60,879 nt of DNA, taken from NCBI GenBank assembly GCA_016219225.1, contig JACRBX010000014.1, positions 1 to 60,879 on the forward strand, written 5' to 3'. The notes below the pieces were generated by a model. It was not told the origin of the DNA, made no database searches, and worked only from the letters and a program-made list of their open reading frames with translations. Origin of the DNA: Deltaproteobacteria bacterium (GTDB lineage: Bacteria; Desulfobacterota; RBG-13-43-22). Of the stretch, positions 38,153 through 60,845 are shown piece after piece (the first letter of the stretch is position 1; the number at the start of each line of letters is the position of its first letter). The position numbers were made by a program, and so were the translations under genes.

Positions 38153-38283
38153 ACGGTATAAGGTCCAAGGTGTAAGATATACGGTATATGGCATAAGATC
38201 TTTCCTTGAACCCTGCATTTTGGCTCTTAGGCCTTATCTTTCTGTTTTTAACCTTGTACCTTTTGCCTTATACTTTGAACCTA
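38153..38283. repeat. Paired 7-bp-period arrays
   Basis: 38153-38205 has degenerate GGTATAA-type units. 38253-38283 holds ACCTTGT/ACCTTTT/GCCTTAT-type units on the same strand, i.e. the complement. The second arm is shared with the 3' flank of the other MMPL gene at 60844-60878. Confidence 0.6.
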
Positions 38284-40743: not shown

Positions 40744-40746
40744 GCC

Positions 40747-44034: not shown

Positions 44035-44487
44035 CTACTTTTTGACCGGTCTCCATTTCGGAAGGCTGTATTCCGGTGAACCATCATCGAAAACGACCTC
44101 CAGTTCCATACCGTTCTTTATATCTTTTAAATCACATTCAACGATGGTGGAGACCATCCGAGGACCTTCCTTGAGATCTATTAAGGCCGTTACATACGGC
44201 AGGTCAGGCATAAATGGAAAAGGAACCCCGACCTCATTGACGGCAAAGGCGTAGAGCGTTGCCCGGCCTGATGCCTGCACCCATTCACTGTTGTCACTCT
44301 GACATTCCGTACAGTAAAGATAGGGTGGGTGATCGATATGACCACAATCCTGGCATGTCTTGAGCAGGAGCTTGTGCTCCTTTGCACCTTCCCAGAACGG
44401 TTTGGACCATTTTGTGGCGACCGGCAACGGTTTCCTTAGATCCTCATCGGTAACCTTAAATTTTTCTTTCAGTGTCTTGGCATCCAT
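44035..44487 (-). CDS. DUF35 OB-fold/zinc-ribbon acyl-CoA-associated protein
   Basis: This 150-aa protein has a zinc ribbon CQDCGH ... CTEC followed by an OB fold (GRATLYAFAVNE, ALIDLKEGPRMVST). DUF35 proteins form heteromers with thiolase-like subunits; BbsA of benzylsuccinyl-CoA thiolase and ChsH2 of the Ltp2 steroid retro-aldolase are examples. It lies 45 nt after the thiolase-like gene, its likely partner. The pair should act on a beta-keto- or beta-hydroxyacyl-CoA. Confidence 0.9.
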   Translation of the reverse strand: MDAKTLKEKFKVTDEDLRKPLPVATKWSKPFWEGAKEHKLLLKTCQDCGHIDHPPYLYCTECQSDNSEWVQASGRATLYAFAVNEVGVPFPFMPDLPYVTALIDLKEGPRMVSTIVECDLKDIKNGMELEVVFDDGSPEYSLPKWRPVKK

Positions 44488-44532
44488 CTGTTGGCTCCTT
44501 CATTTATATTCATGGTCATCACGATGTTATAA

Positions 44533-45741
44533 TTAAGGGACTTCATTTCCGAGGACTGTAAAATGGACATCGGAATAGGCCCCGCCGCCACAATTAAATA
44601 TAAGGAACTTTGCATCCGGAACCTGGGCTTTTCCGGCCTTCCCCTGCAACTGGCGCACAGACTCGGCGAACAAAGCAAAACCAACCCCGGTCCCTGTATG
44701 GCCAAAGCTCAGGGCCTCCCCATTAGTTATGGCAGGGTATTTACCGCCAGGGCTTGTCTCCCCGGCCGCGACGAGCGCTCCAGCCTTGCCCTGTTCGGCG
44801 ATACCCATAGCCTCCAGGCAGATGAGGTCCAAATGGGGATAGGCCCCGTAGGCTTCGAAAATATCCATGTCTTTCGGCCCCAGTCCGGCCTGTTCATAGG
44901 CCTCGTTGGCAGGATGCCTATAAAACTTGATCATTTTCCCCATATCCGCAAAATCCGGGACGGCACTGGTGATAAACCTATGGGAATAACGCGATCCTGT
45001 GCCAAGGATATAGACCGGTTTGACGCCGGTCTTCCTGGCCACCTGCCGAGCCTTCTCTGCGGTGGTCATGACGAAGGCGCTTCCCCCGTCACAGAGCACG
45101 TTGCACATAAAAGCGGTGAGGGGGGCGGCAACCATTTTGCTCTTCAGTACGTCTTCAGTGGTTAATTCCTTCTTATTGAACATCGCATTCGGTTGAAGAC
45201 AGGCCCATTTGCGGCAGGCTACGGAAACGGCGGCAATCTGTTCGATAGTAGTGCCGGAGTGCTCCATATAGGCATTGGCCATCATGGCAGCCAGACCGTT
45301 ATAGGTCATACCGTAGGGAACTTCCCATTCCAGGCTCGAGCCGGCCTGGGCAAAATACTTAATTTGCTCATTGGAGCTGAACTGGGAAAAGCGCTGTGCG
45401 TGCACTACAAGCACCATATCCGTGTGACCCGACTCGAGCACGCCCATGGCCGTCTTCAGGATGGAACTGGTTGAGCCTCCTCCGGAGATTGTAGTCGCAT
45501 ATATCTTGTTGTTCTTTGCGCCTATTGCTTCCGGCAGATGGCCGAAGAACATTTCCGTATTGTACTCGGTGCCCATGATGTGCGCGGCAGTCAAGACCGA
45601 ACCGACGTCTTTCATGTTGATTCCCGCATCTTTTACCGCAGCTCTGGCTACCGTATAAGCAATCTCGAATTCGCTCCGCTCCGGAAACAGGCCGTGGGGC
45701 ACCTCACCGGTACCTATAATTGCAAAGTCGCCTTTATTCAT
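44533..45741 (-). CDS. Thiolase-like (SCP2-thiolase/Ltp2-type) protein lacking the nucleophilic Cys
   Basis: The 402-aa protein has a thiolase fold (ARAAVKDAGINMKDV; late SFGHTGTGVGFALFAE with the GHxxG histidine; NCGGGAYSDVHF). Where SCPx-type thiolases have NNCATGS, it has TTISGGGSTSS, with Ser near residue 86 at the Cys position. Ltp2-type retro-aldolases that work with DUF35 partners also lack this Cys, so carbon-carbon cleavage by retro-aldol reaction is likelier than thiolysis. The start at 45741 has AGAGGAGG upstream. It is the first gene of a long minus-strand run. Confidence 0.85.
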   Translation of the reverse strand: MNKGDFAIIGTGEVPHGLFPERSEFEIAYTVARAAVKDAGINMKDVGSVLTAAHIMGTEYNTEMFFGHLPEAIGAKNNKIYATTISGGGSTSSILKTAMGVLESGHTDMVLVVHAQRFSQFSSNEQIKYFAQAGSSLEWEVPYGMTYNGLAAMMANAYMEHSGTTIEQIAAVSVACRKWACLQPNAMFNKKELTTEDVLKSKMVAAPLTAFMCNVLCDGGSAFVMTTAEKARQVARKTGVKPVYILGTGSRYSHRFITSAVPDFADMGKMIKFYRHPANEAYEQAGLGPKDMDIFEAYGAYPHLDLICLEAMGIAEQGKAGALVAAGETSPGGKYPAITNGEALSFGHTGTGVGFALFAESVRQLQGKAGKAQVPDAKFLIFNCGGGAYSDVHFTVLGNEVP

Positions 45742-45806
45742 AATTAGGCCTCCTCTGTTCTTTCCTGACTCGAGTCGCCTTTTAAAGCGCATTTTTCGTA
45801 AAATGA

Positions 45807-45818
45807 CTGACCGGTCAG
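45807..45818. promoter_or_regulatory. TetR operator candidate 1 (thiolase side)
   Basis: CTGACCGGTCAG is a perfect 12-bp palindrome. It lies just downstream of the predicted thiolase start site. Confidence 0.65.
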
Positions 45819-45830
45819 GTTTGAAGCCAG

Positions 45831-45858
45831 ACTATACGAAAATTTGGAGGCCTGTCAA
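45831..45858 (-). promoter_or_regulatory. Sigma-70-type promoter of the thiolase-DUF35 run
   Basis: On the minus strand: TTGACA, a 16-bp spacer and TATAGT. The operator at 45807-45818 lies just downstream, at about +6 to +17. Confidence 0.7.
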
Positions 45859-45954
45859 GAACTTTTTTATAATATTTAACTTTACGCATTATATCAATAT
45901 ATTACCGTGAAAATATATAATTCTGAGACCGATTGAGGGATTTTATTTTTTTTC

Positions 45955-45985
45955 TTGACATCGTTAAACAAGTAAATTATATATT
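45955..45985 (+). promoter_or_regulatory. Sigma-70-type promoter of the TetR gene
   Basis: TTGACA at 45955-45960, a 17-bp spacer and TATATA at 45978 (or TATATT at 45980 with 19 bp). A degenerate site TGACCAGTCA at 45992-46001 lies near the start of transcription. Confidence 0.6.
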
Positions 45986-46164
45986 GAACCATGACCAGTC
46001 AGTCAGTTTTTCAAAAAAGGTTTCGAGCGATTCTGCCGGTTGACGATTCGAATCAATCAACAGGGCTTTCCCATCACAATCGTTCGGCATTCATTGAAAA
46101 CCTCTCAGAATTATGCAATCATAAAAAGAATAGATCTAAATCACCAGAGGGGGAGGTTACTGAT

Positions 46165-47100
46165 ATGAATGACCGGTCATTAAGCAAAAAACAAGAGATC
46201 ATTGATAAAGCCATAGAATATTTTTCCAAGAACGGCATTGCCGAGACCAAGATAGAGGAAATTACCAATGCCCTCGGCATAGGGAAAGGGACCCTCTATC
46301 TTTATTTTAAGGGTAAGAAAGAGTTGCTGCTCAATTGCATCGACCGGTTGACCACCGTTGTCATACCCAAAGAGGTCTGGCTCGATATCCGGGAAGAAAC
46401 CAACTACAAACTCAGATTTCAGAAAAGGCTCGTTGCCTTTCTCAAGGCCTACCCGACCTTCTGCGGCATCCTGAACCTCGTTAACCAGAGCCTGGAAGGC
46501 AAAGATCCTGAGTTGGCTAAAAAGGCCGGTGATGCCTATCGGTTGCTCGCGGGTCCTTTGACAAAGGATTTCCGCTGGGCGATCAAGCATGGCTGGGTGA
46601 AGGAAATCGATGCAGAGGTCTTGGCCTTCATTATGCTGGGACTGGGTGAAGGCCTGGGCAATATGCTCAAGATCGATCCACGTTACTCACCCGAAAAACT
46701 GGCAGAGATTACCTGGGACATGACCATCAATGGTATCGGCTCCTCTGAAACGGTGAAACCGGAAGAAGCGGGTTCTCTCTATTGGGATTTACGCGATTCC
46801 GGTAATAAAAATCTGCGTATCTACAACCTCAGCTTTAATGGGAAAAGCTATCTTACCGGTGATTTTGGGAAAGGGGAACTCCAGGTTTCCTTAAGGAATA
46901 TTGCCTCTATGTCCATAAAGACTGCCGGTGATGCTTCATCAGTCATAGTGAAGACGAAGAATGATAAGTCCATCATCTTGATGGTTGACGGCAATACCCG
47001 CCTGTCCGCAGAAACGGAGTTCGGTCGTTATGAAATTTTTTTGCGACAGGTTACCCATATATCGGCCATATTAGAAGAAAGCCGATCAAGAAAGGATTGA
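46165..47100 (+). CDS. TetR-family regulator with extra C-terminal domain
   Basis: The N-terminal ~60 residues form a TetR helix-turn-helix (KIEEITNALGIGKGTLYLYFKGK). A helical ligand domain follows to about residue 200. The last ~110 residues (from about DLRDSGNKNLRIYNL) are an extra domain of predicted beta-strands with no family I recognise. Total 311 aa against ~200 for ordinary TetR. The start at 46165 has GGGGGAGG upstream; the longer frame from 45991 would begin at the promoter's start site. It is probably an autorepressor that also controls the thiolase run and the enoyl-CoA hydratase genes downstream. Confidence 0.85.
   Translation: MNDRSLSKKQEIIDKAIEYFSKNGIAETKIEEITNALGIGKGTLYLYFKGKKELLLNCIDRLTTVVIPKEVWLDIREETNYKLRFQKRLVAFLKAYPTFCGILNLVNQSLEGKDPELAKKAGDAYRLLAGPLTKDFRWAIKHGWVKEIDAEVLAFIMLGLGEGLGNMLKIDPRYSPEKLAEITWDMTINGIGSSETVKPEEAGSLYWDLRDSGNKNLRIYNLSFNGKSYLTGDFGKGELQVSLRNIASMSIKTAGDASSVIVKTKNDKSIILMVDGNTRLSAETEFGRYEIFLRQVTHISAILEESRSRKD
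46168..46181. promoter_or_regulatory. TetR operator candidate over the regulator's start codon
   Basis: AATGACCGGTCATT, a perfect 14-bp palindrome beginning right after the ATG at 46165-46167. It resembles the TGAATGA-N4-TCATTCA operator type known for the fatty-acid regulator FadR of Bacillus. Confidence 0.65.
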
Positions 47101-47162
47101 CGATTGTCGATTGAAAGATATTTTGAATCAAAAATCATCAACCATAAATGGAAAGAGAGAAG

Positions 47163-47963
47163 ATGGGAAAAAAGGTCTATGAGACCATCCTCTATGAAAC
47201 GAAAGATCGGGTGGCTACCATAACCCTTAATCGACCGGAGGTCCGGAACGCCATCAATCAGGAGATGGCCGCAGAATTGCTTGATGCCCTCCGTGACTTT
47301 AAAGAGGATAAAGAGACCAAGGTGGGGATATTAACCGGGGCGGGAGAAAAAATATTCTGCGCCGGCGGGGATATTGCCATGTTTTTTGAAAAACTGGCCA
47401 AAGATTCCATGGCCCGGTACGACTGGCTCATTACCGGTGATGAGATCACCCGGCTGATGATGGAGCGGATAGAAAAACCGATCATCGCCGCGGTGAACGG
47501 TCATTGCCTGGCTGGCGGCCTGGAACTGGCGATGGCTTGTGATTTCATCATTGCCTCGGAGAATGCCACCTTCGGGTTGGCTGAAATCGACATCGGCCTG
47601 ATTCCCGGATGGGGCGGGACGACCCGTCTGTTACGGGCCATCCCGGCCAGAAAGGCCAAAGAGATGATTTATACCGGGACCCGCATCGAGGCCCTGGAAG
47701 CGGAAAAGCTGGGCCTGGTCAATAAGGTTGCACCCCGAGGCCAGGCTTATGAAACGGCCCTTGAAATAGCGAAGAAGATTGCCGGTAAGTCTTCCTATAC
47801 CTTAAGACTGGCCAAAAAGGCCTTGACCTACGGATTGGAGGTATCGGGCATGGATGCTGCCCTATTCATTGAGCGGGGGGCGGCCAGCTTAGCTTCGGAA
47901 GGAGAAGGTTTTCAGGAGGGGGTAAGGGCATTTTTAGAGAAGAGGCCGCCGAAGTTTAAATAG
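47163..47963 (+). CDS. Enoyl-CoA hydratase
   Basis: A crotonase-family hydratase of 266 aa. The oxyanion loop is GEKIFCAGGDI. Both catalytic glutamates are in place, in GGLELAMACDF and FGLAEIDIGLIPG. PGWGGTTRLLR and the C-terminal FQEGVRAFLEKRPPKF are normal. It adds water to a 2-enoyl-CoA made by the acyl-CoA dehydrogenase encoded next. ATG 47163 follows AAAGAGAG; the ATG at 47148 has no RBS. It follows the TetR gene by 62 nt. Confidence 0.92.
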   Translation: MGKKVYETILYETKDRVATITLNRPEVRNAINQEMAAELLDALRDFKEDKETKVGILTGAGEKIFCAGGDIAMFFEKLAKDSMARYDWLITGDEITRLMMERIEKPIIAAVNGHCLAGGLELAMACDFIIASENATFGLAEIDIGLIPGWGGTTRLLRAIPARKAKEMIYTGTRIEALEAEKLGLVNKVAPRGQAYETALEIAKKIAGKSSYTLRLAKKALTYGLEVSGMDAALFIERGAASLASEGEGFQEGVRAFLEKRPPKFK

Positions 47964-48017
47964 GTCTTATTGGACCTATAGGGCATATTTTTTTGACAGA
48001 GGAACGGAGAAAAGACC

Positions 48018-49190
48018 ATGGATTTCGGATTCACGGAAGAGCAGAAGATGCTCAGGGACAATATAAGGAAATTTGTCAATAAGGAAATCAAAGGACCCTA
48101 TGCCCGGGACCTGGATGAAGACCCGGAGAAGATGTTTATCGATGAGGCCATGTGGAAGAAAATTAAAGACCTCGGGGTTTTTGAAATGGCCGTGCCGGAG
48201 GAATACGGCGGTGTGGGTGGAACCTTCATGGATGACGTGATCATCAATGAGGAATTTGCCCGGGGCTCGGCGGCTGTGGCCATGTCCTTCGGAGCCACCA
48301 CCGGTTTCGGGGCCAGGGCCATCCTTTTCAGCGGCTCGGAGGAGCAGAAACGATTCTTCCTTCCCAAGATCGCCGAGGCCGAGATCCGGTTCGCCATGGC
48401 GGTGACTGAACCGGGAGGGGGTACGGATATCCTCGGGGCCTTGAGGACCTTTGCCCGGCAGGAGGGGGACTCTTTCGTCGTTAGCGGCCAGAAGGTATTC
48501 ATCACTAATGCTCACAAGGCTGATTACCTATTAACTCTCGTAAAAACGGACAGGGAAACGACTAAAAAAACAAACGCCCTTTCCCTCTTCCTGATTCCGG
48601 TACGTGATAATCCGGGAATAAAGATCGTCCCCCTTAAAAAATTCACCATTAAAGGGGCCTCGGCCTGCGAAATTTTTTTCGACGAGGCGAGGGTCCCCGC
48701 TGCCTTCATGCTGGGCAAACTAAATAACGGCTGGTATGAGCTTTTAAAGACGCTTAACCACGAAAGAATCATGGTGGCGGCCCTGACCAATGGCATCGGC
48801 CAGGCGGCCCTGGAAGATATGGTCGAATATGCCAGGACCCGGGAAGCCTTCAGCCGGCCGATCGGACAATATCAGGCTATTCAGCATAAAATAGCCGATA
48901 CGGTTATGGATCTGGAATTCGCTAAACTGATTACCTACAAGGCCACCTGGCTGCTTGAGGCCGGACACCCCTGTCACCTGGAAGCCGCCATGGCTAAGCT
49001 GGTCAGCTCCGAAATGGCCTTTAAGGCGGCCACCCGGGGCCTGGATATCCTGGCCGGATACGGGGTCACCATCGAATATGATATGCAGCGCTATTTCAGG
49101 GATTCCCGTCAATGCACCTTTTCGCCCATCTCCAATGAAATGGTGCGCAATTTTATTGCCGAGAACTATGGCCTTCCAAGGTCTTATTGA
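48018..49190 (+). CDS. Acyl-CoA dehydrogenase with FSPISNEM-type C-terminus
   Basis: The 390-aa FAD enzyme has AVTEPGGGTDILGA, SGQKVFITNAH and LDILAGYGVTIEYDMQRYFRD. At the classical catalytic Glu site it has TFSPISNEM instead of YEGT. LNHER supplies Glu249 at the isovaleryl-CoA-dehydrogenase base position. The same variant recurs in the gene at 4109, but the two C-termini differ, so they are not recent duplicates. A cyclic or branched acyl-CoA is likely. It lies 54 nt after the hydratase. Confidence 0.9.
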   Translation: MDFGFTEEQKMLRDNIRKFVNKEIKGPYARDLDEDPEKMFIDEAMWKKIKDLGVFEMAVPEEYGGVGGTFMDDVIINEEFARGSAAVAMSFGATTGFGARAILFSGSEEQKRFFLPKIAEAEIRFAMAVTEPGGGTDILGALRTFARQEGDSFVVSGQKVFITNAHKADYLLTLVKTDRETTKKTNALSLFLIPVRDNPGIKIVPLKKFTIKGASACEIFFDEARVPAAFMLGKLNNGWYELLKTLNHERIMVAALTNGIGQAALEDMVEYARTREAFSRPIGQYQAIQHKIADTVMDLEFAKLITYKATWLLEAGHPCHLEAAMAKLVSSEMAFKAATRGLDILAGYGVTIEYDMQRYFRDSRQCTFSPISNEMVRNFIAENYGLPRSY

Positions 49191-49229
49191 TCGTGGAAAG
49201 CAAAAAATAAAAGTCAGGAGGAGTGTCCA

Positions 49230-50618
49230 ATGGAAGAAAAAGAGAGCAAGAAAGAGGTCTTAAAAAACTTAACAGCGCCGCTCAAAATAGGTCCCTTCGA
49301 ATTGAGGAATCGGATTGCCCTGGCCCCTATGAACGAGACTATGGCCGGCGCCAATGGTGAGTGCACCTATCAGGAAGTATGTTATTACGGCACACGGGCC
49401 AAAGGTGGAACCGCTCTGGTTACGACCGGTGCGATCATGGGTACCAGGCTGGGTTCGAGGTTTGTCTGGGGCCGTAACATGTACTGTTTCAACGCCGGTC
49501 ATCTTCAGGGCCTTGGGATGCTGACCACACATATCCACTATTTTGGTGGTTTGGCCAGTGCCCAGATGAGCATGGGCTTCGGCCGTCAGGGACACTCTTA
49601 TGACGAACATGAACTCGCCCCCGCTCCCACTGCCGGTCTTCCCTATGAGGCTGCGGTCGAGAGCTTTACCTCCGGAATCGGCCCTATTTTCCGGAAAAGC
49701 GAGAAGGCCCGTCAATTCCTTATCGGACAGCAGACCAGAGAAATGAGCATTTCCGAGATTCAATCCGAACAGAAGGAATATGCGGCCAGTTGCCAGCTTG
49801 CCGTGACGGCCGGTTTCGATATGATCGAAATTCATGGTCCCCATGGCTATCTCGAGCATGAATTCCTCTCACCGCTCTCGAACAAACGGACCGATATGTA
49901 CGGCGGGGAATGGAGAAACCGTAAACGCCTCATCAACGATACCATGGACCAAGTTCGTTACGCCTGTCCGGGAGTTGCCGTGGGTGTCCGAATCAGCGCC
50001 GAGGAACATCAGGAGGGGGGATTGACCCGTGAGGAAATGATCGATCTGGCCAGGGACCTGGAGGCCAGGGGGGCTGACTTCATCAGCCTATCCGATGGAG
50101 GAGGTTACGAAGAGACAAGCCACCTTGTAGGGACAAAAGAGGTGGCCGAACACATCCCAGACGCCGGGGCGGATTTTAAAAAGGCCTTAAAAATCCCCGT
50201 TATCGTGGCTTCACAGCATGATCCTATAAAGGCCGACGCGGATATCGGCGCCGGTAAATTTGATGTCTCTGCATTGGCACGGCAGCTATTTGTCGACCCC
50301 GAATATGCCAACAAGGTCATGGAGGGTCGACAGGATGAGATCATCCGCTGTAAAAGGTGTAACATCTGCCTCATGCGTTGTCTTTCCGGGATCACCCCGG
50401 AATGTCCGCAAAATCCCTGGCTTGGAAGGGAATATGCCAATCCCGACTATGGCTTCGGAGCACGGCAGAAACATGAATCGATCCTTATGAAGGGCATGCA
50501 GAATGCGCCTATGCCGGCACTGGATAAACCCTGGTGGAAGAAAGAGTTCCCTTTGATGGAAAAAAACTGGAGGGGGTTCCGTGGTCCCGGCGCGCGGTGG
50601 TCGAAGGAAGAGGAATAG
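49230..50618 (+). CDS. Old-yellow-enzyme-type flavin oxidoreductase with 4Fe-4S motif, no FAD/NAD domain
   Basis: It is a 462-aa FMN TIM-barrel protein (FELRNRIALAPM, LSNKRTDMYGGEWRNR). The cluster motif is CKRCNICLMRC with a following CPQNP. Unlike the 668-aa protein at 41826 it ends after the cluster and lacks the C-terminal dinucleotide domains, so electrons must come from a partner. Enoyl or enone reduction on the pathway intermediate is expected. Gap to the dehydrogenase is 39 nt. Confidence 0.88.
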   Translation: MEEKESKKEVLKNLTAPLKIGPFELRNRIALAPMNETMAGANGECTYQEVCYYGTRAKGGTALVTTGAIMGTRLGSRFVWGRNMYCFNAGHLQGLGMLTTHIHYFGGLASAQMSMGFGRQGHSYDEHELAPAPTAGLPYEAAVESFTSGIGPIFRKSEKARQFLIGQQTREMSISEIQSEQKEYAASCQLAVTAGFDMIEIHGPHGYLEHEFLSPLSNKRTDMYGGEWRNRKRLINDTMDQVRYACPGVAVGVRISAEEHQEGGLTREEMIDLARDLEARGADFISLSDGGGYEETSHLVGTKEVAEHIPDAGADFKKALKIPVIVASQHDPIKADADIGAGKFDVSALARQLFVDPEYANKVMEGRQDEIIRCKRCNICLMRCLSGITPECPQNPWLGREYANPDYGFGARQKHESILMKGMQNAPMPALDKPWWKKEFPLMEKNWRGFRGPGARWSKEEE

Positions 50619-50697
50619 CAGTGATGAGGCAGACCAATGGGACTGTTCCCCCTTAATCCGGGAGGTGCGGAGAACATAAACGCCTCTCTTAACATAC

Positions 50698-50731
50698 GGG
50701 ACAGTTCCGGCCTATGGCCTCGGGCTGTCCC
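50698..50731. repeat. Compound hairpin between genes
   Basis: GGGACAG pairs with CTGTCCC, with an inner GGCC-TAT-GGCC stem. It is 80 nt past the flavin oxidoreductase stop. A GGGACTGT segment at 50639 repeats the motif. No T-run, so its role is unclear. Confidence 0.5.
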
Positions 50732-50760
50732 GGCCAACACACAACATAAAGGAGCGTCGA

Positions 50761-51774
50761 ATGCCAATAGACATCAAGAAAGATGATTACTTTAAGATCG
50801 ATCCTGAAGCCCATCTGGTCGGCGAAAGTGCGCCTTTTGAATACTTCCCGGGTGTCCATTTGTGGTGGAATTCAATTGCGGCTATCAAACGGCCCATGAT
50901 GCTCGGACTACCGAAGTCATTCCTGGAGAGCGTTGAAACGCAGGAACTGCAAAAAGATGCCGATCCGGCCTCGCTTCTTAAAGCGATGGATAAGTATGGT
51001 GTCGATATCGCCTGTCTGCTGCCCGAGTCAATGATGGACACAACCGGATATACCGGAAGGTTCTGCAGTAACGGAGAAATGGCGAAAGTGGTCGAGGCCA
51101 ACCCGGACCGTTTCATGTACCAGCCGAACCTCTCCCCGATCAAATTCAAAGGCGTCAAGAACACCATCTGGGAGCTCGAATACTGGGTCAAGGAGAAAGG
51201 GGCCAAGATTTTCAAATTCTACCCTCCTGAAGACACCTGCATAAACGATCCCGATCTCTGGCCCTTCTACCGTAAGGCAGAGGAGTTGGACATTGTGCTC
51301 GATATCCATACGGGATTCGGCTGGTGCGCGCCTGGGAAATTCAGTAATGGTCTCCCTATGTATCTGGACGATGTCGCTCGCGACTTTCCGCGGCTGAAAA
51401 TAGTGGCCTTCCACATGGGGTATCCTCAGTGTGATGATCTCAATATGGTAGCCATGGCCCACAAGAATGTTTATGTCTGCATCAGCCTTGTGGTCACCTG
51501 GGCCTTATCCTCCCCGCGCAAGTTTGCCAAGATGCTCGGTGAAGCCCTGCGCTGGGTCGGTCCCGATAAAATCATTTGGGGCAGTGATGATCCGGCCCTG
51601 CATATACAAATGGCCTGTTCGGTTCGGGGGTTCCGGGACTTTCAGATGCCCCAGGACCTTCAAGAGCAGTACGGATATCCTGAGGTAACCGATGAAGACA
51701 AAAGGAAGATCTTCGGGGAAAACCTGGCCGGTCTTTTGGGCATCGATATCAGCCGAAGAAGGGTGGCCTTGTGA
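50761..51774 (+). CDS. Amidohydrolase family 2 (ACMSD-like) protein
   Basis: This 337-aa TIM-barrel hydrolase/decarboxylase of the amidohydrolase-2 group shows VLDIHTGFGW, VAFHMGYPQCDD and IWGSDDPALH for the metal and catalytic His/Asp positions. The N-terminal HxH motif of canonical members is not obvious (IDPEAHLVG instead), so metal ligation may be altered. Family reactions include decarboxylation and ring-opening hydrolysis. RBS AAAGGAG precedes ATG. Its place between a flavin reductase and an acyl-CoA ligase suggests hydrolysis or decarboxylation in the same pathway. Confidence 0.82.
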   Translation: MPIDIKKDDYFKIDPEAHLVGESAPFEYFPGVHLWWNSIAAIKRPMMLGLPKSFLESVETQELQKDADPASLLKAMDKYGVDIACLLPESMMDTTGYTGRFCSNGEMAKVVEANPDRFMYQPNLSPIKFKGVKNTIWELEYWVKEKGAKIFKFYPPEDTCINDPDLWPFYRKAEELDIVLDIHTGFGWCAPGKFSNGLPMYLDDVARDFPRLKIVAFHMGYPQCDDLNMVAMAHKNVYVCISLVVTWALSSPRKFAKMLGEALRWVGPDKIIWGSDDPALHIQMACSVRGFRDFQMPQDLQEQYGYPEVTDEDKRKIFGENLAGLLGIDISRRRVAL

Positions 51775-51799
51775 TCAGGTTTAGTTCGAAAATAGCATT

Positions 51800-51830
51800 C
51801 AGGGGTCAGGGGCCGGGGGCCGGGGATCGG
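51800..51830. repeat. 7-bp-period array (CAGGGGT type)
   Basis: Four units: CAGGGGT, CAGGGGC, CGGGGGC and CGGGGAT. Confidence 0.7.
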
Positions 51831-51838
51831 CGAAAGAC

Positions 51839-51883
51839 ATTTTCATGCTTCGTTATTGTCCGCATTAAGCGGGTATAAGGATT
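51839..51883 (+). promoter_or_regulatory. Recurrent hairpin leader element, copy F
   Basis: ATTTTCATGCTTCGTTATTG is followed by CCGCATTAAGCGGG. The ATAAGGA inside it serves as RBS for the start at 51888. Confidence 0.5.
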
Positions 51884-51887
51884 TGAT

Positions 51888-53420
51888 ATGTACACTTTGG
51901 GAGATATACCACGGAAAGGAAGTGCCCTGTATCGGGATAAGGTGGCCCTGGTATTTGAAGGCATCAATCTTACCTTTAAGGAATTGGACGACCGGGTCAA
52001 CCGTCTGGCCAATGCCCTGATGGACCTTGGACTTAAAAAAGGCGGCCGCGTTACCGTATTGGCCGAGAATACCCATAAATATATGGAGATTTACTTTGCC
52101 GCGGCCAAGCTTGGGGCGAGCGTTACGCCTCTCAATTTCAGGCTGTCTGACAAAGAGATTGATTATATCGGCAATAATTGTGAGGCCACCATCTATTTTG
52201 CCGGGGACGGATATGAAGAACGGTCCCTCGGGTTTAAGCAGAACCTGAAAAATATCAGGCAGTGGATATCCCTAGATAAAATAAATAATGGATTCATGTA
52301 TTATGAGGACCTTCTCCGGAATGCCTCGGAAGAAGAGCCGATGGTGGAGGTGGATGAAAATGATCTGGCCATCCTCATGTACACCGGAGGAACTACAGGC
52401 CTTCCCAAGGGGGTCATGCTTTCGCACCGGAACATCATGACGTCCATGTACGGGATGATCATCGGTTTTTCCTTCACGAGGAACGATTCCACCTGTTTTA
52501 TGCTTCCCTTGTTCCATATTGCCTTGTGGCCTGTCCTCAGTTTGCTCATGGTTGGCGGGAAGTCGGTCATCCTCCGTCGACCGGACATCGGGGAGATCCT
52601 GAGGTCGATTCACCAGGAGAGATGCACCCATATTAATATGGTGCCCACGCTTTTGAACTGGCTCATTGATGATCCCCGGATCGATGAATTCGACCTGTCC
52701 AGTCTGCGTCTCATAGGCTATGCGGGGAGCCCGATAGCCATAGAAGTATTGAAAAAAGGGATCGCCAGGTTTGGCAGCATTTTTACCCAGGGATATGGAT
52801 TGACGGAAGCCGCTCCCATTGTTTCCGTCCTGTTCAAGGAAGATCATTGGGTCGATGGTCCGGGGGTGAAGCTCCTTTCCAGTGTGGGCAAAGTCGGTCT
52901 CCCGGTGGAAGCCCGGATTGTGGATGAGGAGGATCGGCCGTTACAACCCGGCGAACCGGGAGAGGTGGTCGTACGGGGTAAAAATGTGATGATGGGTTAC
53001 TGGAAAAACCCCGAGATGACTGATTCAGCCCTACGCGGCGGCTGGCTCCATACGGGGGACGTGGGAACCATCGATGGGGACGGTTACATCTATTTGTTGG
53101 ACCGGAAAGCCGACATGATTATCACCGGAGGGGAAAACGTCTACCCCAAGGAGACCGAAGACGCCCTTTACGAGCATCCGGCCGTCAGGGAATGCGCCGT
53201 GGTCGCCGCCCCCGATGAGCGCTGGGGAGAGAAGGTACAGGCGGTGGTTGTTTTGAAGACCGGCCTGACGGCTACCGAAGCAGAATTGATCCATCATTGC
53301 AAGACCAGGCTGGCAGGATACAAATGCCCGAAAAATATCGTCTTCTGGGATGAATTGCCTAAAACTCCCGTGGGGAAGATATTGAGGCGGGAAGTGAGGA
53401 AGCACTTCGCAGACCTATAG
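51888..53420 (+). CDS. AMP-forming acyl-CoA ligase
   Basis: This 510-aa ANL-family ligase has LMYTGGTTGLPKGVMLSH, QGYGLTEAAP, GWLHTGDVGTIDGDGYIYLLDR and the C-terminal lysine motif PKTPVGKILRREV. It is the second acid-activating enzyme in the window and shorter than the one at 5359. RBS ATAAGGA is part of the leader element. An MFS permease gene follows 70 nt on, so import and activation of a substrate are probably coupled. Confidence 0.92.
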   Translation: MYTLGDIPRKGSALYRDKVALVFEGINLTFKELDDRVNRLANALMDLGLKKGGRVTVLAENTHKYMEIYFAAAKLGASVTPLNFRLSDKEIDYIGNNCEATIYFAGDGYEERSLGFKQNLKNIRQWISLDKINNGFMYYEDLLRNASEEEPMVEVDENDLAILMYTGGTTGLPKGVMLSHRNIMTSMYGMIIGFSFTRNDSTCFMLPLFHIALWPVLSLLMVGGKSVILRRPDIGEILRSIHQERCTHINMVPTLLNWLIDDPRIDEFDLSSLRLIGYAGSPIAIEVLKKGIARFGSIFTQGYGLTEAAPIVSVLFKEDHWVDGPGVKLLSSVGKVGLPVEARIVDEEDRPLQPGEPGEVVVRGKNVMMGYWKNPEMTDSALRGGWLHTGDVGTIDGDGYIYLLDRKADMIITGGENVYPKETEDALYEHPAVRECAVVAAPDERWGEKVQAVVVLKTGLTATEAELIHHCKTRLAGYKCPKNIVFWDELPKTPVGKILRREVRKHFADL

Positions 53421-55064: not shown

Positions 55065-55256
55065 TTATTGCAAGAGACCGTTTTCAATGATGCTGAGAAT
55101 GGTTTCATTGACCTCCTCTGTAGAGTAGGCCCCTTGGGTGATCAATGAGGCATTGTACTGCCCCATACCCATGAGAAAATATCCGGCCCCCGAACTGTCG
55201 ATTTCCTTCCGAACGCGGCCCTCTTTTTTAAGATATTCAAGTCCCCGGATTAAGGG
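55065..55256 (-). pseudogene. Truncated regulator: C-terminal ~64 codons of a third TetR-type paralogue
   Basis: Minus-strand translation begins right after the stop of the intact regulator at 55257, in the same frame. It reads PLIRGLEYLKKEGRVRKEID, then GYFLMGMGQYN, SLITQGAYS and IENGLLQ before a stop at 55065. This parallels the C-terminus of the intact protein (PMVREIEYLQKQGRFRRDID ... GYYLMGIGEYGAYLANQGT ... LYGLLK). The first ~220 codons of this paralogue are missing. A deletion between tandem regulator genes explains it. Confidence 0.75.
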
Positions 55257-56099
55257 TTATTTCAGAAGACCGTATAAAATGAAATCATTCGCCATTTCTC
55301 GGATTTTATCAGGTTCAGCGGGGGCGGTTCCCTGGTTGGCTAAATAAGCCCCATATTCTCCGATCCCCATCAGATAATATCCGGCCAGTTGGGGATCGAT
55401 GTCACGGCGAAAACGACCTTGTTTCTGCAGATACTCGATTTCCCGGACCATTGGGTGGATCATCTGCCGGAGGAGGGCTTTAAATTTGTCTTTGAAGGCC
55501 TGGTTTTCGCCGACGGCAAGTCCTCTGACCAAATTCATCATTTCAATCCATTTCGGATAAGAGGTATAGAAACCCTTTCCCAGTTTTTCAATCCGTCGGA
55601 GTCTGTCTTCCTCATCCTTAATTTCTTGCCAGACGTTATTGTACATATCATGAAAGATGCGGTCCGCACACTCCATGAACAGTTCTTCTTTGTTCTTAAA
55701 ATGGAGATAAAAGGTCTCTTTGCTCATGCGGGCCTGGTGGGCGATATCGGCTATGCTTGTATTCGCATAGCCTTTTTGGAGAAAAAGTTCGATGGCAGAC
55801 GAAATGATTTCCTGATGCCTGTCGTAGGTGCTGATATCTTCCCTGGGATCTTCAGAGAAATACATTTTCCTCTTGATCTCCTCTTTGATCACCTTCAGAG
55901 ATTTGTGCTCCTTAAATTGTTTTTTTTTGATCAGCAGTATGGCCTTAAGGTGCGCCTTCGAATAGTAAGCCCTGGTCTTTCCCGTTTTTATCGGTGCCGG
56001 CAACAGGCCCTCGACGATATAGTACATTATGGTGGAGGCGGGCAGGTCGGCGGCCGCAGAAAGTTCGGATATTTTCATCAGATTTTTATGTTCCTTCAT
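55257..56099 (-). CDS. MerR-TetR fusion regulator 2
   Basis: This 280-aa protein carries two different DNA-binding modules. Residues about 8-77 form a MerR-type winged helix (MKISELSAAADLPASTIMYY, IVEGLLPAPIKTGKTRAYYS). Residues about 92-141 are a TetR helix-turn-helix (NTSIADIAHQARMSKETFYL, HFKNKEELFMECADRIF). A helical TetR ligand domain follows. It overlaps the upstream paralogue by 4 nt (ATGA) and is translated with it. It probably regulates the divergent YCF48-MMPL operon. Fusion of MerR and TetR domains is not a common arrangement. Confidence 0.85.
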   Translation of the reverse strand: MKEHKNLMKISELSAAADLPASTIMYYIVEGLLPAPIKTGKTRAYYSKAHLKAILLIKKKQFKEHKSLKVIKEEIKRKMYFSEDPREDISTYDRHQEIISSAIELFLQKGYANTSIADIAHQARMSKETFYLHFKNKEELFMECADRIFHDMYNNVWQEIKDEEDRLRRIEKLGKGFYTSYPKWIEMMNLVRGLAVGENQAFKDKFKALLRQMIHPMVREIEYLQKQGRFRRDIDPQLAGYYLMGIGEYGAYLANQGTAPAEPDKIREMANDFILYGLLK

Positions 56100-56941
56100 T
56101 TCCTCGTCCTATCCTTTAAAAAACCGTTTAAATTCATGTCCCAGGCTTTACGCATGATTTCGCCAACTTCCGCTTTATTCTCTTCAGAGTAGTATAAAAA
56201 ATATTCCGCTGAACCCATTATCATATAGGCCAAAAAACGACTGTCCATTGTTCGAATCTGCCCTTGTTGCATAGCTTTTTCCAGGTCTTCCCGAAGGGGC
56301 TCAGTAAGGTTCCTTATGACCTCATCCAGTTTTTCTTTTACATGTTTGTCTCCCCGGACGGCAGCACCGCGGATGAGATTGAGCATCTCCAACACATGCT
56401 GTTGGTGTTGCCCAAAGAATTTACCGCGCATCTGGAGTTTTTTGATGGGGTCGGTTTCCTCTTGGATTTCGGGTATATTTTCGCCGATCTCTCGAAATAT
56501 ACTGTCGGCGCATTCAATGAAGAGGTCCTCCTTATTTCGAAAATATTGATAAAAGGTCCCCTTACTGATACCGGCCCGGGCCGGTATATCAGAAATTTTT
56601 GTCCCCCCATAGCCTTTTTCCCGGAAGAGCTTAACCGAAGTCTTTATGATTTGTTCCTTTTTGGCGGTATTGATGGTGATATTTTCCTCTACCGGTTGTA
56701 TATTAGTCCCCTTTTCCCTGACAATCTCCTTTATGGCTTCGAGGGGTAGCCCCTCTTCTTTCAATTTCTGGACCTCCAGGAGGGCATTGAGGTGGTCTTC
56801 TGTATAATAGGCCATGGTCTTGCTCGTTTTCAGCGGCTTGGGCAGTAATCCTTCCCGTAAATAAAATCGGATGGCGGTAATTGATGTCCCGGCATAGGCG
56901 CTGAGCTCTGATATTTTCATATGTTTCGGGAGTTTGTTCAT
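56096..56941 (-). CDS. MerR-TetR fusion regulator 1
   Basis: The 281-aa product has a MerR-type helix-turn-helix at about residues 8-77 (MKISELSAYAGTSITAIRFY, LREGLLPKPLKTSKTMAYYT) and a TetR one at about 95-141 (GGTKISDIPARAGISKGTFY). It ends with a TetR-type helical domain (GSAEYFLYYSEENKAEV). It is a clear paralogue of the following gene. AAAGAAAGGA lies upstream of the ATG. Promoters at 57102-57151 diverge to it and to the YCF48-MMPL operon, which it probably represses. Confidence 0.85.
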   Translation of the reverse strand: MNKLPKHMKISELSAYAGTSITAIRFYLREGLLPKPLKTSKTMAYYTEDHLNALLEVQKLKEEGLPLEAIKEIVREKGTNIQPVEENITINTAKKEQIIKTSVKLFREKGYGGTKISDIPARAGISKGTFYQYFRNKEDLFIECADSIFREIGENIPEIQEETDPIKKLQMRGKFFGQHQQHVLEMLNLIRGAAVRGDKHVKEKLDEVIRNLTEPLREDLEKAMQQGQIRTMDSRFLAYMIMGSAEYFLYYSEENKAEVGEIMRKAWDMNLNGFLKDRTRK

Positions 56942-57101
56942 AGGTTCTAATCCTTTCTTTCCTTACAATCCTTTATAAGGCCGAAGGGGTGTTTAATCAA
57001 GGTAAATCGTATTTTAACCATTCCGGTTTACAGCCTTCAAATTCTCCTGGTTTTTTAATTTTATCTGTCATTTCATGGCTTAATCTAACTTTACCTTTTT
57101 T

Positions 57102-57129
57102 ATATTACTGGAAAAATTTTTCTTGACAA
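57102..57129 (-). promoter_or_regulatory. Promoter of the MerR-TetR pair
   Basis: On the minus strand: TTGTCA (complement of 57124-57129), a 16-bp spacer and TAATAT. The -35 box overlaps that of the plus-strand promoter. Confidence 0.45.
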
Positions 57130-57151
57130 GTTAAAAAAATAGAAATATAAA
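57123..57151 (+). promoter_or_regulatory. Strong sigma-70 promoter of the second YCF48-MMPL operon
   Basis: TTGACA at 57123-57128, an exact 17-bp spacer, then TATAAA at 57146-57151. Expected start near 57159, leaving a leader of ~195 nt. Confidence 0.75.
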
Positions 57152-57158
57152 CTAAAGA

Positions 57159-57173
57159 ACAGAACGGTACTGT
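57159..57173. promoter_or_regulatory. Operator candidate at the YCF48-MMPL start site
   Basis: ACAGAACGGTACTGT, an imperfect palindrome (ACAG ... CTGT arms), lies exactly at the predicted start of transcription. It could be bound by one of the MerR-TetR regulators. Confidence 0.45.
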
Positions 57174-57353
57174 ATTATAAAAAATTTTAATACCTCAGCC
57201 CGAACAGATAAGGAAGAAAATACATACGCAAAGGGAAAATCGCCATTATCGGTATAGAAAAACGGGCGTCCTTTGTAAGGGCGAACCACTCGATAAATGA
57301 TTTTCTCCTCTTCAAAATTCGCCTGGAACTTAGGCAAGAAAGGCCTGGTCGTG

Positions 57354-58379
57354 ATGATGTATAGCCTAAAACGGTTACTGGCACCGATTGCTTTATTAGT
57401 CTGTTTTTCCTGGACAGCCGGATGCAACCAGAACCAGAAGCTTAATGCCGTACCGGCGCGGGTTATGGGCAGTGTCCCACCCATCACCTTCGGCGACAAA
57501 TTCTATGACGTAGCCGTGCCCGATAAGGAGCATATCTGGTCTGTGGGCTACTTTGGGACCGTTACCCATTCATCGGACGGGGGCAAGATGTGGTCCCGAC
57601 AACAGGCCGGTACGACCCAGTCTTTAACGAGTGTATCTTTTGTAAACGATAAAGAAGGCTGGATCGTGGGCGATCAGGGGACCATTCTCCATACCCAGAA
57701 CGGGGGCCTTAATTGGGCGAAACAAAAAAGCCCCGTGATCGACCAGAAACTGCTCAAAGTTCAATTCCTCACTGACAAGGAGGGATTTGCAGTGGGTACC
57801 TTCGGGACAATACTTCATACGGCGGACGGCGGCGGCACCTGGGAAAAGCAGCCTTTCCAGGAAGATGTGATTTTAAATGACCTGGTATTCCTGAACTCAC
57901 GGGAAGGCTGGATCAGCGGTGAATTTGAAACCATCCTCCATACGATAGATGGTGGGAAGACCTTTCAGAAACAACGGGGCGGTGAATTGGGCAAACTCTT
58001 CGGCATCGCCTTTCATGATGATAGGCAGGGCGTGGCCGTGGGTACGGCCGGAAAGATCCTGGTTACTTCGGATGGCGGCCGGAGATGGAAACCGGTCAAG
58101 AGCAATACGGAAGATACCCTGCTTAAGGTTCGATTCTTCGGTTCCAGGCTTTTGGCCGTCGGTTTAAGGGGGGCGGTGCTTCAATCCGCCGATCAGGGCC
58201 GGACCTGGACGGCCCCGAGTATCCCCGGCCACTATTCCTGGCTTTCAGGCCTGGCCTTTACCGACGGGGTCGGGTTTCTGGTGGGCAATGAAGGGAAAAT
58301 CCTGGCCTCCAGGGATAACGGCCAAACCTGGACCCGACTCGGCCTGTCTCCCTTTATGGGCGTCGGAAAAAAGGAGTAA
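57354..58379 (+). CDS. YCF48-like beta-propeller lipoprotein, copy 2
   Basis: This is a paralogue of the protein at 40747, with 341 aa from ATG 57354 (or the next ATG at 57357). The signal MMYSLKRLLAPIALLVCF ends at a lipobox-like WTAGC. Repeats again carry SSDGGKMWSRQ, LHTQNGGLNWAKQ, LHTADGGGTWEKQ and VTSDGGRRWK. PPITFGDKFYDVA is conserved with copy 1. It is 3 nt before the MMPL gene, as in copy 1. RNA from the promoter at 57123 would give a ~195-nt leader; no clear RBS is visible (AAAGG at a long spacing). Confidence 0.87.
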   Translation: MMYSLKRLLAPIALLVCFSWTAGCNQNQKLNAVPARVMGSVPPITFGDKFYDVAVPDKEHIWSVGYFGTVTHSSDGGKMWSRQQAGTTQSLTSVSFVNDKEGWIVGDQGTILHTQNGGLNWAKQKSPVIDQKLLKVQFLTDKEGFAVGTFGTILHTADGGGTWEKQPFQEDVILNDLVFLNSREGWISGEFETILHTIDGGKTFQKQRGGELGKLFGIAFHDDRQGVAVGTAGKILVTSDGGRRWKPVKSNTEDTLLKVRFFGSRLLAVGLRGAVLQSADQGRTWTAPSIPGHYSWLSGLAFTDGVGFLVGNEGKILASRDNGQTWTRLGLSPFMGVGKKE

Positions 58380-58382
58380 GTC

Positions 58383-60845
58383 ATGTATAAGGCACTGGTC
58401 AGCTTTCTCATTAACCACAAAAAAAAGGTGGTGATCGCCATGGCGGTCATCACCCTCTTTTTTCTGAGCCAGATTTTCCGCATCCAGATGTTCACCCAAT
58501 TTTTGGACCTCTTTCCCAAGGACCATCCTTACGTCCAGGTGCATCAGAAATATGCCAGGTATTTCGGTGGGTCCTATCAAGCCACGTTGGTTTTAGAGGT
58601 CAAGAAAGGGGATGTCTTCAACACGGAGACCCTGGCCAAGATGTCCCGCATTACCGACGCGGTCGACCTCATACCGGGGGTGGACCACTTCGGTATTTAC
58701 TCGATAGCCTCCCAGAAGGTGACGATCCTGAAAGAGACAGCCGGGGGGTTTTCCTCTTATCCGGTCATGAAAGAAGTGCCCAAAGATCAGGCCGCCATGG
58801 AGGAGCTGAAGAAAAAGGTCTTTACCGCGGGGAATGTGAACGGCATCTGGGTTTCCCGGGATCAGAAGGCCCTTCGGCTGGATGCCAACTTCGTCGAAGG
58901 CAAGATCGACTTCAAGGTGCTCTTCAACAAATTCATGGAGATCGAGAGAAAGGAATCAGACACCAATCATAAGATCTACCTGACCGGCACCCCCCTGCTT
59001 TACGGCTGGATCTATCATTACCTGCCCAACATGGCCCTCATCCTGGCCGTCACTTCCGTGGTGATCCTTCTGATGCTCTTCGCCTATATGAGCCGTGGGG
59101 GCCTATGGTTCTGGCCTTTCATCAGCGCCGTCATGACCTCCATCTGGGGCCTGGGCTTTGCGGCCATCCTAGAATTTCACTTTGATCCGCTGATCATCGT
59201 TATACCGTTCCTTTTATCGGCCCGGGCCATGAGTCATGGAGTTCAATGGGTGGAGCGGTTCACCGAGGAGTATCAGAAATCAGGTGACACCCAGGAAGCG
59301 GCCTTGATCACCGGTACAGGCCTCTTCCCTCCCGGGCTGATTGGTATTCTTGCCGACACGTTGGCTTTGCTGGTGATCTGCCTGACGCCCATCCCCACAC
59401 TCCGAAACCTGGCCTATTTAGGCTTTTTCTGGTCCGGGGGCATGATCTTCACCATCTTTTTTCTTTATCCGGCGTTGTTCGCCCTGTTTAAGGCCATCCG
59501 GGTGCCGGTTCAATCCAATATGCTTCCGGTCGATGCCTTTAAAATGGAAAAGCTATCGGAAAAGGTGACCTCCCGGCCCTCGATTCTGGACCGAACCCTA
59601 TCCTACAGAATCGAATATCTTACCGAGCACCTGCTTAGGAAAATACTGACCAAAATGTCCGGCTGGACTTTCGGAGCGGGCCGATACGCCACTGTAGGTG
59701 TAAGTGTCCTCATCCTCATAGTGGCTATCATTTCCTCCACGCACCTTAAATACGGCGATGCCAATCCAGGCTCCCCCATCCTCTGGCCCCATTCGAGGTT
59801 CAATCAGGATATCACTGAAATCAACAAAAAGTTTCCCGGGGTGGATCAGATGTGGGTGGCGGTGGAAGGAAAAAGACCGCAATCCGTGACCTACCCGGAC
59901 GTGATCAATGGGATGGAAGAGCTCAGTCAATATATGATGGCCGACCCCAATGTGGGCTTCGCCATCTCCATAGCCGATTTAATCAAAGGGGCCAACATGC
60001 TGGCTTATGGGAATGATCCTAAGATGGAGTCGATACCCCATTCCCAGCAGGCCATTGGGAATTGCATCGGCCTGATTGGAGTCGGTGCCGCCCCGGGCGA
60101 GATGGACACTTGGATCGACTACAATATAACCAGCACCAATATCAAACTCTATCTAAAAAACCATGAAGGCCCGGTCCTGGAAGATGTCATCAATCGGGTT
60201 AAAAATTTTATAAAAAACAATCCCAAGCTCATGGAAAATGCTATCCCGAAACCGGCGGGAGGTCTTGGAGGGATCCTGGCGGCGGCCAACGAGGTGATCC
60301 AGACCAAAAACGATCAGATTCTTTTTATCGTGCTGGGTATTATCTTCATCCTCTGTGCAGTAACCTATCGCTCCATTCTGGCCGGGGTGATCTTTATCAT
60401 GTCCCTTATCTTAGCCAACTTCCTGGCTTTCACTTATATGGTCTTCAAGAACATCGGCCTCAACATCAATACCTTCCCGGTGGTCTCCCTGGGCATCGGC
60501 CTGGGGGTGGACTACGGGCTGTACATCGTCAGCCGGATCATCGAGGTCTATAAAGAAGAGAAAGACCTGGCTAAGGCGGTCCAGGCCGGTATCATCACCT
60601 CAGGCCGGGCGGTCTTCTTCACCGCCACCATGATGACCGCCGGAGTGATCTTCTGGTATTTTTCTCCGCTTCGGTTTCAGGCTGAGATGGGAATATTGCT
60701 TGGTATTCTCATGATGGTCAATATGGTGGTCGGCGTTCTGGTCCTTCCGGCGGTCATCAACATCATCAAGCCTAAATTCATAACCAGGGGAGGTGATAAC
60801 AACGGAGGATTTCACATTCCTCCCGGAATGCTACCGAGAAGATAG
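58383..60845 (+). CDS. MMPL/RND-family exporter, copy 2
   Basis: The 820-aa RND transporter has exactly the same length as copy 1 at 38281 and aligns end to end. Shared segments include SQIFRIQMFTQFLDLFP, NEAR the second bundle GLGVDYGLYIVSRIIE and GRAVFFTATMMTAGVIF, and the C-terminal GGDNNGGFHIPPG. Divergent parts are the linker at about residues 375-395 and a few periplasmic loops. The operon runs with the YCF48 gene from the 57123 promoter. Unlike copy 1, no DUF1302/DUF1329 genes lie beside it within the window. Confidence 0.92.
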   Translation: MYKALVSFLINHKKKVVIAMAVITLFFLSQIFRIQMFTQFLDLFPKDHPYVQVHQKYARYFGGSYQATLVLEVKKGDVFNTETLAKMSRITDAVDLIPGVDHFGIYSIASQKVTILKETAGGFSSYPVMKEVPKDQAAMEELKKKVFTAGNVNGIWVSRDQKALRLDANFVEGKIDFKVLFNKFMEIERKESDTNHKIYLTGTPLLYGWIYHYLPNMALILAVTSVVILLMLFAYMSRGGLWFWPFISAVMTSIWGLGFAAILEFHFDPLIIVIPFLLSARAMSHGVQWVERFTEEYQKSGDTQEAALITGTGLFPPGLIGILADTLALLVICLTPIPTLRNLAYLGFFWSGGMIFTIFFLYPALFALFKAIRVPVQSNMLPVDAFKMEKLSEKVTSRPSILDRTLSYRIEYLTEHLLRKILTKMSGWTFGAGRYATVGVSVLILIVAIISSTHLKYGDANPGSPILWPHSRFNQDITEINKKFPGVDQMWVAVEGKRPQSVTYPDVINGMEELSQYMMADPNVGFAISIADLIKGANMLAYGNDPKMESIPHSQQAIGNCIGLIGVGAAPGEMDTWIDYNITSTNIKLYLKNHEGPVLEDVINRVKNFIKNNPKLMENAIPKPAGGLGGILAAANEVIQTKNDQILFIVLGIIFILCAVTYRSILAGVIFIMSLILANFLAFTYMVFKNIGLNINTFPVVSLGIGLGVDYGLYIVSRIIEVYKEEKDLAKAVQAGIITSGRAVFFTATMMTAGVIFWYFSPLRFQAEMGILLGILMMVNMVVGVLVLPAVINIIKPKFITRGGDNNGGFHIPPGMLPRR
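60804..60823 (+). other. Hairpin inside the MMPL 3' coding end
   Basis: GGAGGA, an 8-nt loop and TCCTCC. It lies in a block conserved at the DNA level in both MMPL copies (see findings). Confidence 0.4.

Follow-up and report, generated by a model that had tools for sequence, protein, structure and literature searches.

Paired MerR-TetR fusion proteins as probable subunits of one local repressor in a deltaproteobacterial genome

MerR and TetR proteins are among the commonest bacterial regulators and are treated as separate families. TetR proteins usually homodimerise, and members of the MerR family classically bind promoters with a long spacer and activate them. The closest described TetR relatives of the proteins reported here are the FadR proteins of Bacillus (3whb/3whc, 5gp9) and Thermus (3ang) and MbdR (4uds). 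These are homodimers of a single gene product without a MerR module; they are encoded beside CoA-thioester genes and bind a palindromic operator at the start site. Mycobacterium tuberculosis has a double-TetR repressor, Mce3R (9b7y), in which two unequal TetR units of one chain form an intramolecular asymmetric four-helix bundle. It represses a lipid-transport/catabolic locus locally, is autoregulated, has no MerR modules and recognizes a non-palindromic site of 25 bp. On the MerR side CueR, CadR, TipA, BmrR and others share an N-terminal winged helix. The family described below joins the two types of regulator.

We analysed a stretch of 60,879 nucleotides of a Deltaproteobacteria bacterium (contig JACRBX010000014.1, assembly GCA_016219225.1), here called the window. 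Three features of its minus strand are central:

56096-56941, minus strand: gene A, 281 aa; MerR winged helix (residues 8-76), linker (77-95), TetR_N (98-144), TetR ligand/dimer domain (145-276)
55257-56099, minus strand: gene B, 280 aa; architecture as in A
55065-55256, minus strand: remains of a third paralogue, of B type; its last 63 codons and the stop, in frame directly after the B stop

The first-pass annotation had proposed that A and B each join a MerR-type winged helix to a full TetR protein, and Pfam searches with both proteins and an AlphaFold2 model of A bore this out. MerR_1 (PF13411, curated cut-off 21.6 bits) matched residues 8-76 with an E-value of 1.5e-19 and 70.3 bits in A, and of 9e-13 and 48.6 bits in B. 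PF00376 scored 32 bits in A and 30.2 bits in B (cut-off 28.2). TetR_N (PF00440, cut-off 24) was found at residues 98-144 of A (E 1.6e-17, 63.4 bits) and 98-143 of B (E 6.7e-17, 61.4 bits), and residues 98-276 of either protein make up a complete TetR protein. The combination is unusual for this genome, which has 44 TetR_N matches and only three MerR_1 domains, two of them in A and B.

The model of A had a mean pLDDT of 89.6 and was confident for both modules. The winged helix comprises helices 10-17, 21-29, 48-62 and 67-76 and a wing strand at 44-46. A floppy, low-confidence joint (86-88) directly precedes the TetR helices, and residues 92-272 adopt an all-helical TetR fold with the C-terminal ligand/dimer helices at 137-272. 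In a Foldseek search with A the top matches were FadR proteins of the TetR family, among them the complex with stearoyl-CoA (3whc); together with MbdR they are what the C-terminal two thirds of A and B match best in sequence and structure. In a separate comparison with PDB chains, each of the best 60 matches covered one module, none both. The NCBIfam FadR equivalog scored 59.9 bits against a cut-off of 200, and no other NCBIfam model was reached by A or B either. In TetR proteins the helix-turn-helix at the N-terminus is usually, if not by strict definition, the sole DNA-binding domain, whereas in A and B the MerR_1 domain comes first. Unlike MerR proteins, A and B have no MerR-type effector domain, and the long antiparallel coiled coil that follows the winged helix as a dimer interface is absent from the model of A. 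The usual MerR wing is of the GYRxY type, in place of which A and B have KTGKTMAYY. We regard the fusion as a variant of the TetR-type one-component regulators and not as a new category.

The suggestion that the fusion belongs to no standard family held in part. A named family was not found, and a search of the open-access literature returned no description of a MerR-TetR fusion or hybrid, though an earlier mention may exist elsewhere. The fusion is, however, no local oddity, as it occurs in at least 64 loci. When 84,980 species genomes were scanned for the wing signature T[GS][KR]TMAYY, 69 loci were found, of which 64 encode a TetR domain in frame with it. Most belong to Desulfobacterota or Actinomycetota, and some records are labelled Syntrophomonadaceae, Dehalococcoidia, Myxococcales or plainly Proteobacteria. 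Full-length MerR-TetR proteins were present in 16 of 395 genomes sampled across Desulfobacterota. Of 31 genomes in the class to which the actinobacterial member G549 belongs, 27 were positive, with up to 8 fusions each. A plasmid collection yielded no match. Mean conservation within the family was 2.69 bits for TetR_N, 1.87 for the TetR ligand part, 1.0 for the linker, and 2.65 for the MerR module (2.84 for its helix-turn-helix part), the value for the wing being inflated, in part as an artefact, because the loci were collected by that motif. The high values for MerR and TetR_N indicate that both DNA-binding modules are under constraint. The fusion is a large, conserved and widespread family for which we found no description, with A and B apparently representing one ancient heteromeric branch. 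It spans at least two phyla and lies beside anaerobic CoA-thioester pathways, about the regulation of which little is known.

A and B are 39% identical and overlap; the tandem duplication that had been noted for them was borne out. The A stop and the B start share 4 nt (ATGA), and GAGG/AGGA lies shortly 5' of the B start. A maximum-likelihood tree of 84 units separated two subclades, each with a support of 100/99. In subclade A, the A protein of the window groups with the leading gene of a pair in a second genome (G347) and with the N-terminal halves of three long proteins; in subclade B, the window's B groups with the second gene of that pair and with the C-terminal halves of the same long proteins. 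The order was A then B in all five genomes in which both are complete. They are separate, overlapping genes in the window and in G347, where the overlap deduced from the coordinates is again 4 nt. In L122, L124 (also found in G033) and L126 they form a single frame of 593, 594 and 589 aa, respectively, with the architecture MerR-TetR-MerR-TetR. Singletons in the genomes G481, G482, G538 and G546 scored about equally to A and B, as expected for lineages outside the A/B duplication. Among culturable relatives, Desulfatibacillum alkenivorans and Desulfosarcina widdelii have the regulator as a single gene, divergent from a thiolase operon.

All three long frames come from metagenome-assembled genomes, which could mean that they are assembly or sequencing errors and that A and B are ordinary neighbours. 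We consider this hardly credible. Each frame stems from a different assembly, and the L122 and L126 linkers resemble each other in both length and sequence, the linker of L124 being related to them. B has also lost, in L122 and L126, the start methionine at its former position. Furthermore, a partial fused frame lies at a contig edge in G427, which is of the same genus as G033. An AlphaFold2 model of the fused A-B chain, built from a shallow alignment, was of moderate confidence (pLDDT 70.3, pTM 0.57). Its best match in the PDB was Mce3R, with which it shares the two TetR units per chain; in the window these units are divided between two genes. Because the superposition was poor (15 A rmsd, TM by target 0.51), we counted the match as weak support for an intramolecular dimer.

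Do A and B act together or apart? Most members of the family are single genes and hence presumably homodimers, so that A and B might likewise each form homodimers of their own, with targets that overlap or differ, and be neighbours merely through a tandem duplication. Yet the duplication is old, given the identity of 39% and the grouping of each protein with its counterparts in other families and classes. Moreover, the order is fixed, the genes overlap, covalent fusions recur and a single operator is present (see below), which makes independent homodimers unlikely. Proteins that have been co-inherited since ancient times, keep a fixed order, are translated in a coupled manner and also occur covalently fused are usually parts of one complex; for A and B this combination points to an obligate heteromer.

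A truncated third paralogue in frame after the B stop had also been proposed, and the similarity searches confirmed it. The 63 codons matched B-type proteins with E-values from 3.6e-14 (B of the window) to 3.6e-12, whereas other members of the family set gave hardly any match. Compared with the C-terminus of B, 23 of 46 residues are identical, and the differences fall 17/11/29 on the first, second and third codon position. The preference for the third position and the similarity to B imply that the remnant is real and formerly functional and did not arise by chance. By this pattern of substitutions the third paralogue was a working B-type gene for most of its history and became shortened and decayed later.

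Upstream of A lies the divergent operon with the candidate regulatory elements:

57123-57151, plus strand: promoter of the divergent YCF48-MMPL operon, read from sequence; TTGACA, 17-nt spacer, TATAAA
57154-57173, strand not assigned: candidate quasi-palindromic operator of about 20 bp between A and the divergent operon; AAAGAACAGAACGGTACTGT, on the minus strand ACAGTACCGTTCTGTTCTTT; core 57159-57173
57297-58379, plus strand: gene for a YCF48-like lipoprotein (PF14870, E 4.3e-41), divergent from A; likely target
58383-60845, plus strand: MMPL/HAE3 RND transporter gene, same operon as YCF48; likely target

A stock promoter scan did not list this promoter because it accepts only -10 boxes that end in T. 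The TATAAA box adjoins the candidate operator, the centre of which is 41 nt downstream of the TTGACA start. The predicted site falls within the region 57100-57180 that had been suggested for DNA-binding assays. A site of the ACAGTACYGT type occurs upstream of A in all five A/B loci that have upstream DNA, which amount to about four independent loci because L122 and L126 are close relatives. It is kept although the divergent gene varies, being YCF48 in the window, a thiolase gene in G347 and L124 and a LuxR gene in L122. In G347 the site is a nearly perfect 20-bp palindrome, ACAGTACCGTTCGGTACTAT. The singleton L125 and sister singletons carry similar sites; the sister site, GTACCGTACGGTAC, was found without a starting motif (five-member set, motif score 70 versus 48-52 for shuffles). 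The spacing is conserved as well: the centre of the site is 41-44 nt downstream of the TTGACA start of the divergent operon in three A/B loci including the window. Among ten A/B, basal and sister loci, eight (window, L155, L124, L125, L118-L121) have an exact TTGACA that begins 41-45 nt ahead of the site centre, with the -10 box abutting the site, and in the desulfo9 subclade a TTGACA-like box lies at 38-46 nt. The closely related fused loci L122 and L126 have no TTGACA at the expected position.

Four other subclades, the sister set among them, were scanned without a starting motif, and the scores were compared with those of shuffles. The three besides the sister set gave palindromes well above the shuffles (124 versus 70-78, 206 versus 100-104 and 151 versus 97-102). 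A further motif set, delta_other, gave no clear motif (72.7 versus 63-69). The palindromes were GGGAATGACAAGTCATTCCC-like in actinobacteria, TTGACCnTAnAGTCAA in one group of Desulfobacterota and GAAAATGACGnnnCGTTTCT in another. The actinobacterial palindrome resembles the FadR box of Bacillus, a likeness for which a literature search found no paper. In desulfo9 (L077, L082, L092, L073, L096 and L103) conservation upstream of the genes extends beyond the palindrome, as CTATAGAAAATGACG...CGTTTCT, and may represent MerR half-sites; a second TCTATAGAAAA copy lies about 35 bp away.

It had been proposed that the fusion could bridge two types of operator, the MerR and TetR modules reading different operators at different places and thereby linking them. 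Two complete and conserved DNA-binding modules would suit such a role, as would the extended conservation and the second TCTATAGAAAA copy in desulfo9. However, the A/B loci share one conserved element, the divergent promoter's -10 box accounts for the flanking conservation, and the genome of the window has a single site within one mismatch. We rejected a further operator elsewhere in the window or genome, as the remaining matches have two mismatches and are fewer than those of a reversed-pattern control. We therefore find the bridging proposal unsupported and rather improbable; a single close site implies that the regulator is local. Alternatively, the MerR module might turn on a long-spacer promoter, the classical mode of its family, with the TetR domain serving solely as ligand sensor. 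In that mode the operator lies between the -35 and -10 boxes, which are 19-20 nt apart. The target promoters here have TTGACA and 17-nt spacers with the palindrome downstream of the -10 box, and activation of the MerR type is thus highly improbable. The comparison of loci instead reveals the arrangement characteristic of TetR proteins, a palindromic operator that overlaps the regulated promoter.

The genes on the other side of A and B belong to a catabolic cluster:

47148-53420, plus strand: genes for ECH, acyl-CoA dehydrogenase, OYE-type oxidoreductase, amidohydrolase_2 and acyl-CoA ligase; catabolic cluster adjoining A/B

We scored seven cluster genes (thiolase, DUF35, ECH, acyl-CoA dehydrogenase, acyl-CoA ligase, OYE and amidohydrolase), which in the window lie at 44035-53420. 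At least five of them were near 23 of 63 family loci compared with 1 of 20 control TetR loci from the genome of the window. OYE and amidohydrolase occurred together near 17 of the 63, but near none of the 20 controls. YCF48 and MMPL, in contrast, were near 0 of 63 related loci. The link to YCF48-MMPL genes raised by the first-pass annotation is hence not conserved, and we rejected them as conserved partner; the conserved neighbour is the acyl-CoA catabolic cluster. Relatives of A and B probably control this cluster from the same type of operator, as judged from the sites upstream. In the window, the adjacent catabolic operon yielded no copy of the operator, so that here its control by A/B is an argument from proximity. 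With the site located at the YCF48-MMPL promoter, the exporter appears to have come under a regulator that governs the pathway elsewhere. Similar YCF48-MMPL genes are part of a 'nanopod' cluster of a benzene-degrading Desulfobacterota strain, a cluster for which transport of hydrocarbons across the membrane has been proposed (PMC13101534), a precedent that fits export or import of the pathway substrate. A second YCF48-MMPL cassette is present in the window, and the two (38281-41796, minus strand, and 57297-60845, plus strand) flank the acyl-CoA catabolic island.

Taken together the best explanation, which we hold to be probable, is that A and B are subunits of one heteromeric, autoregulated repressor that acts at a single operator and is released by a CoA thioester. 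Each subunit would consist of a MerR winged helix joined to a TetR repressor of the acyl-CoA type, and the two would pair via the C-terminal TetR helices. The heteromer would bind the quasi-palindrome of about 20 bp, which would span the point where transcription of the divergent operon begins, and, as in other TetR systems, sterically block RNA polymerase from starting there. In the window the target would be YCF48-MMPL, and the same site probably also limits expression of A and B; in relatives the same regulator and site would act on the neighbouring operon for CoA-thioester breakdown. A CoA thioester from the pathway would bind the TetR pocket and cause release of the DNA, the acyl-CoA type of ligand being suggested by the FadR structure matches and the cluster neighbours. 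The MerR modules most likely add grip on the flanking DNA without twisting the promoter, a function disfavoured by the ordinary 17-nt spacer and the position of the operator downstream of the -10 box. A and B together thus probably hold nearby genes for breakdown or export of fatty or aromatic acids off until a CoA-linked acid is present.

More tentatively, the fusions might constitute an undescribed class of one-component regulators with two different DNA-binding modules per subunit, in which the MerR modules read the second part of a composite operator, the A/B branch acts exclusively as heterodimer and the fused proteins are single-chain regulators. We regard this as possible, though less likely than not to hold in full. 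If the A/B branch were heterodimer-only, it would bring together four DNA-binding modules, of two kinds in two versions each. The clade-specific operators and the A/B pair in its separate, overlapping and fused forms provide a series for tracing the path from homodimer to obligate heterodimer to single chain, and for asking what the second DNA-binding module contributes.

Finally, several related architectures were observed. The wing motif occurs without a recognisable TetR domain in L117, L127 and L123, which carry Myxococcales or uncultured delta proteobacterium labels. In the window a plus-strand gene at 45991-47100 encodes a TetR protein that resembles A and B in its TetR part and carries at its C-terminus an additional domain of about 100 aa, without a Pfam match. 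The same domain also follows MerR-TetR in a protein of 460 aa (L030/L044), and similar long frames of 421-489 aa exist in G079 (L058 and others), indicating shuffling of domains within the family. Two further open reading frames in the genome of the window (G000:C79:8209-8988, 434 aa, and G000:C58:564-1343, 447 aa) both contain a pair of TetR_N domains, a layout like that of Mce3R.
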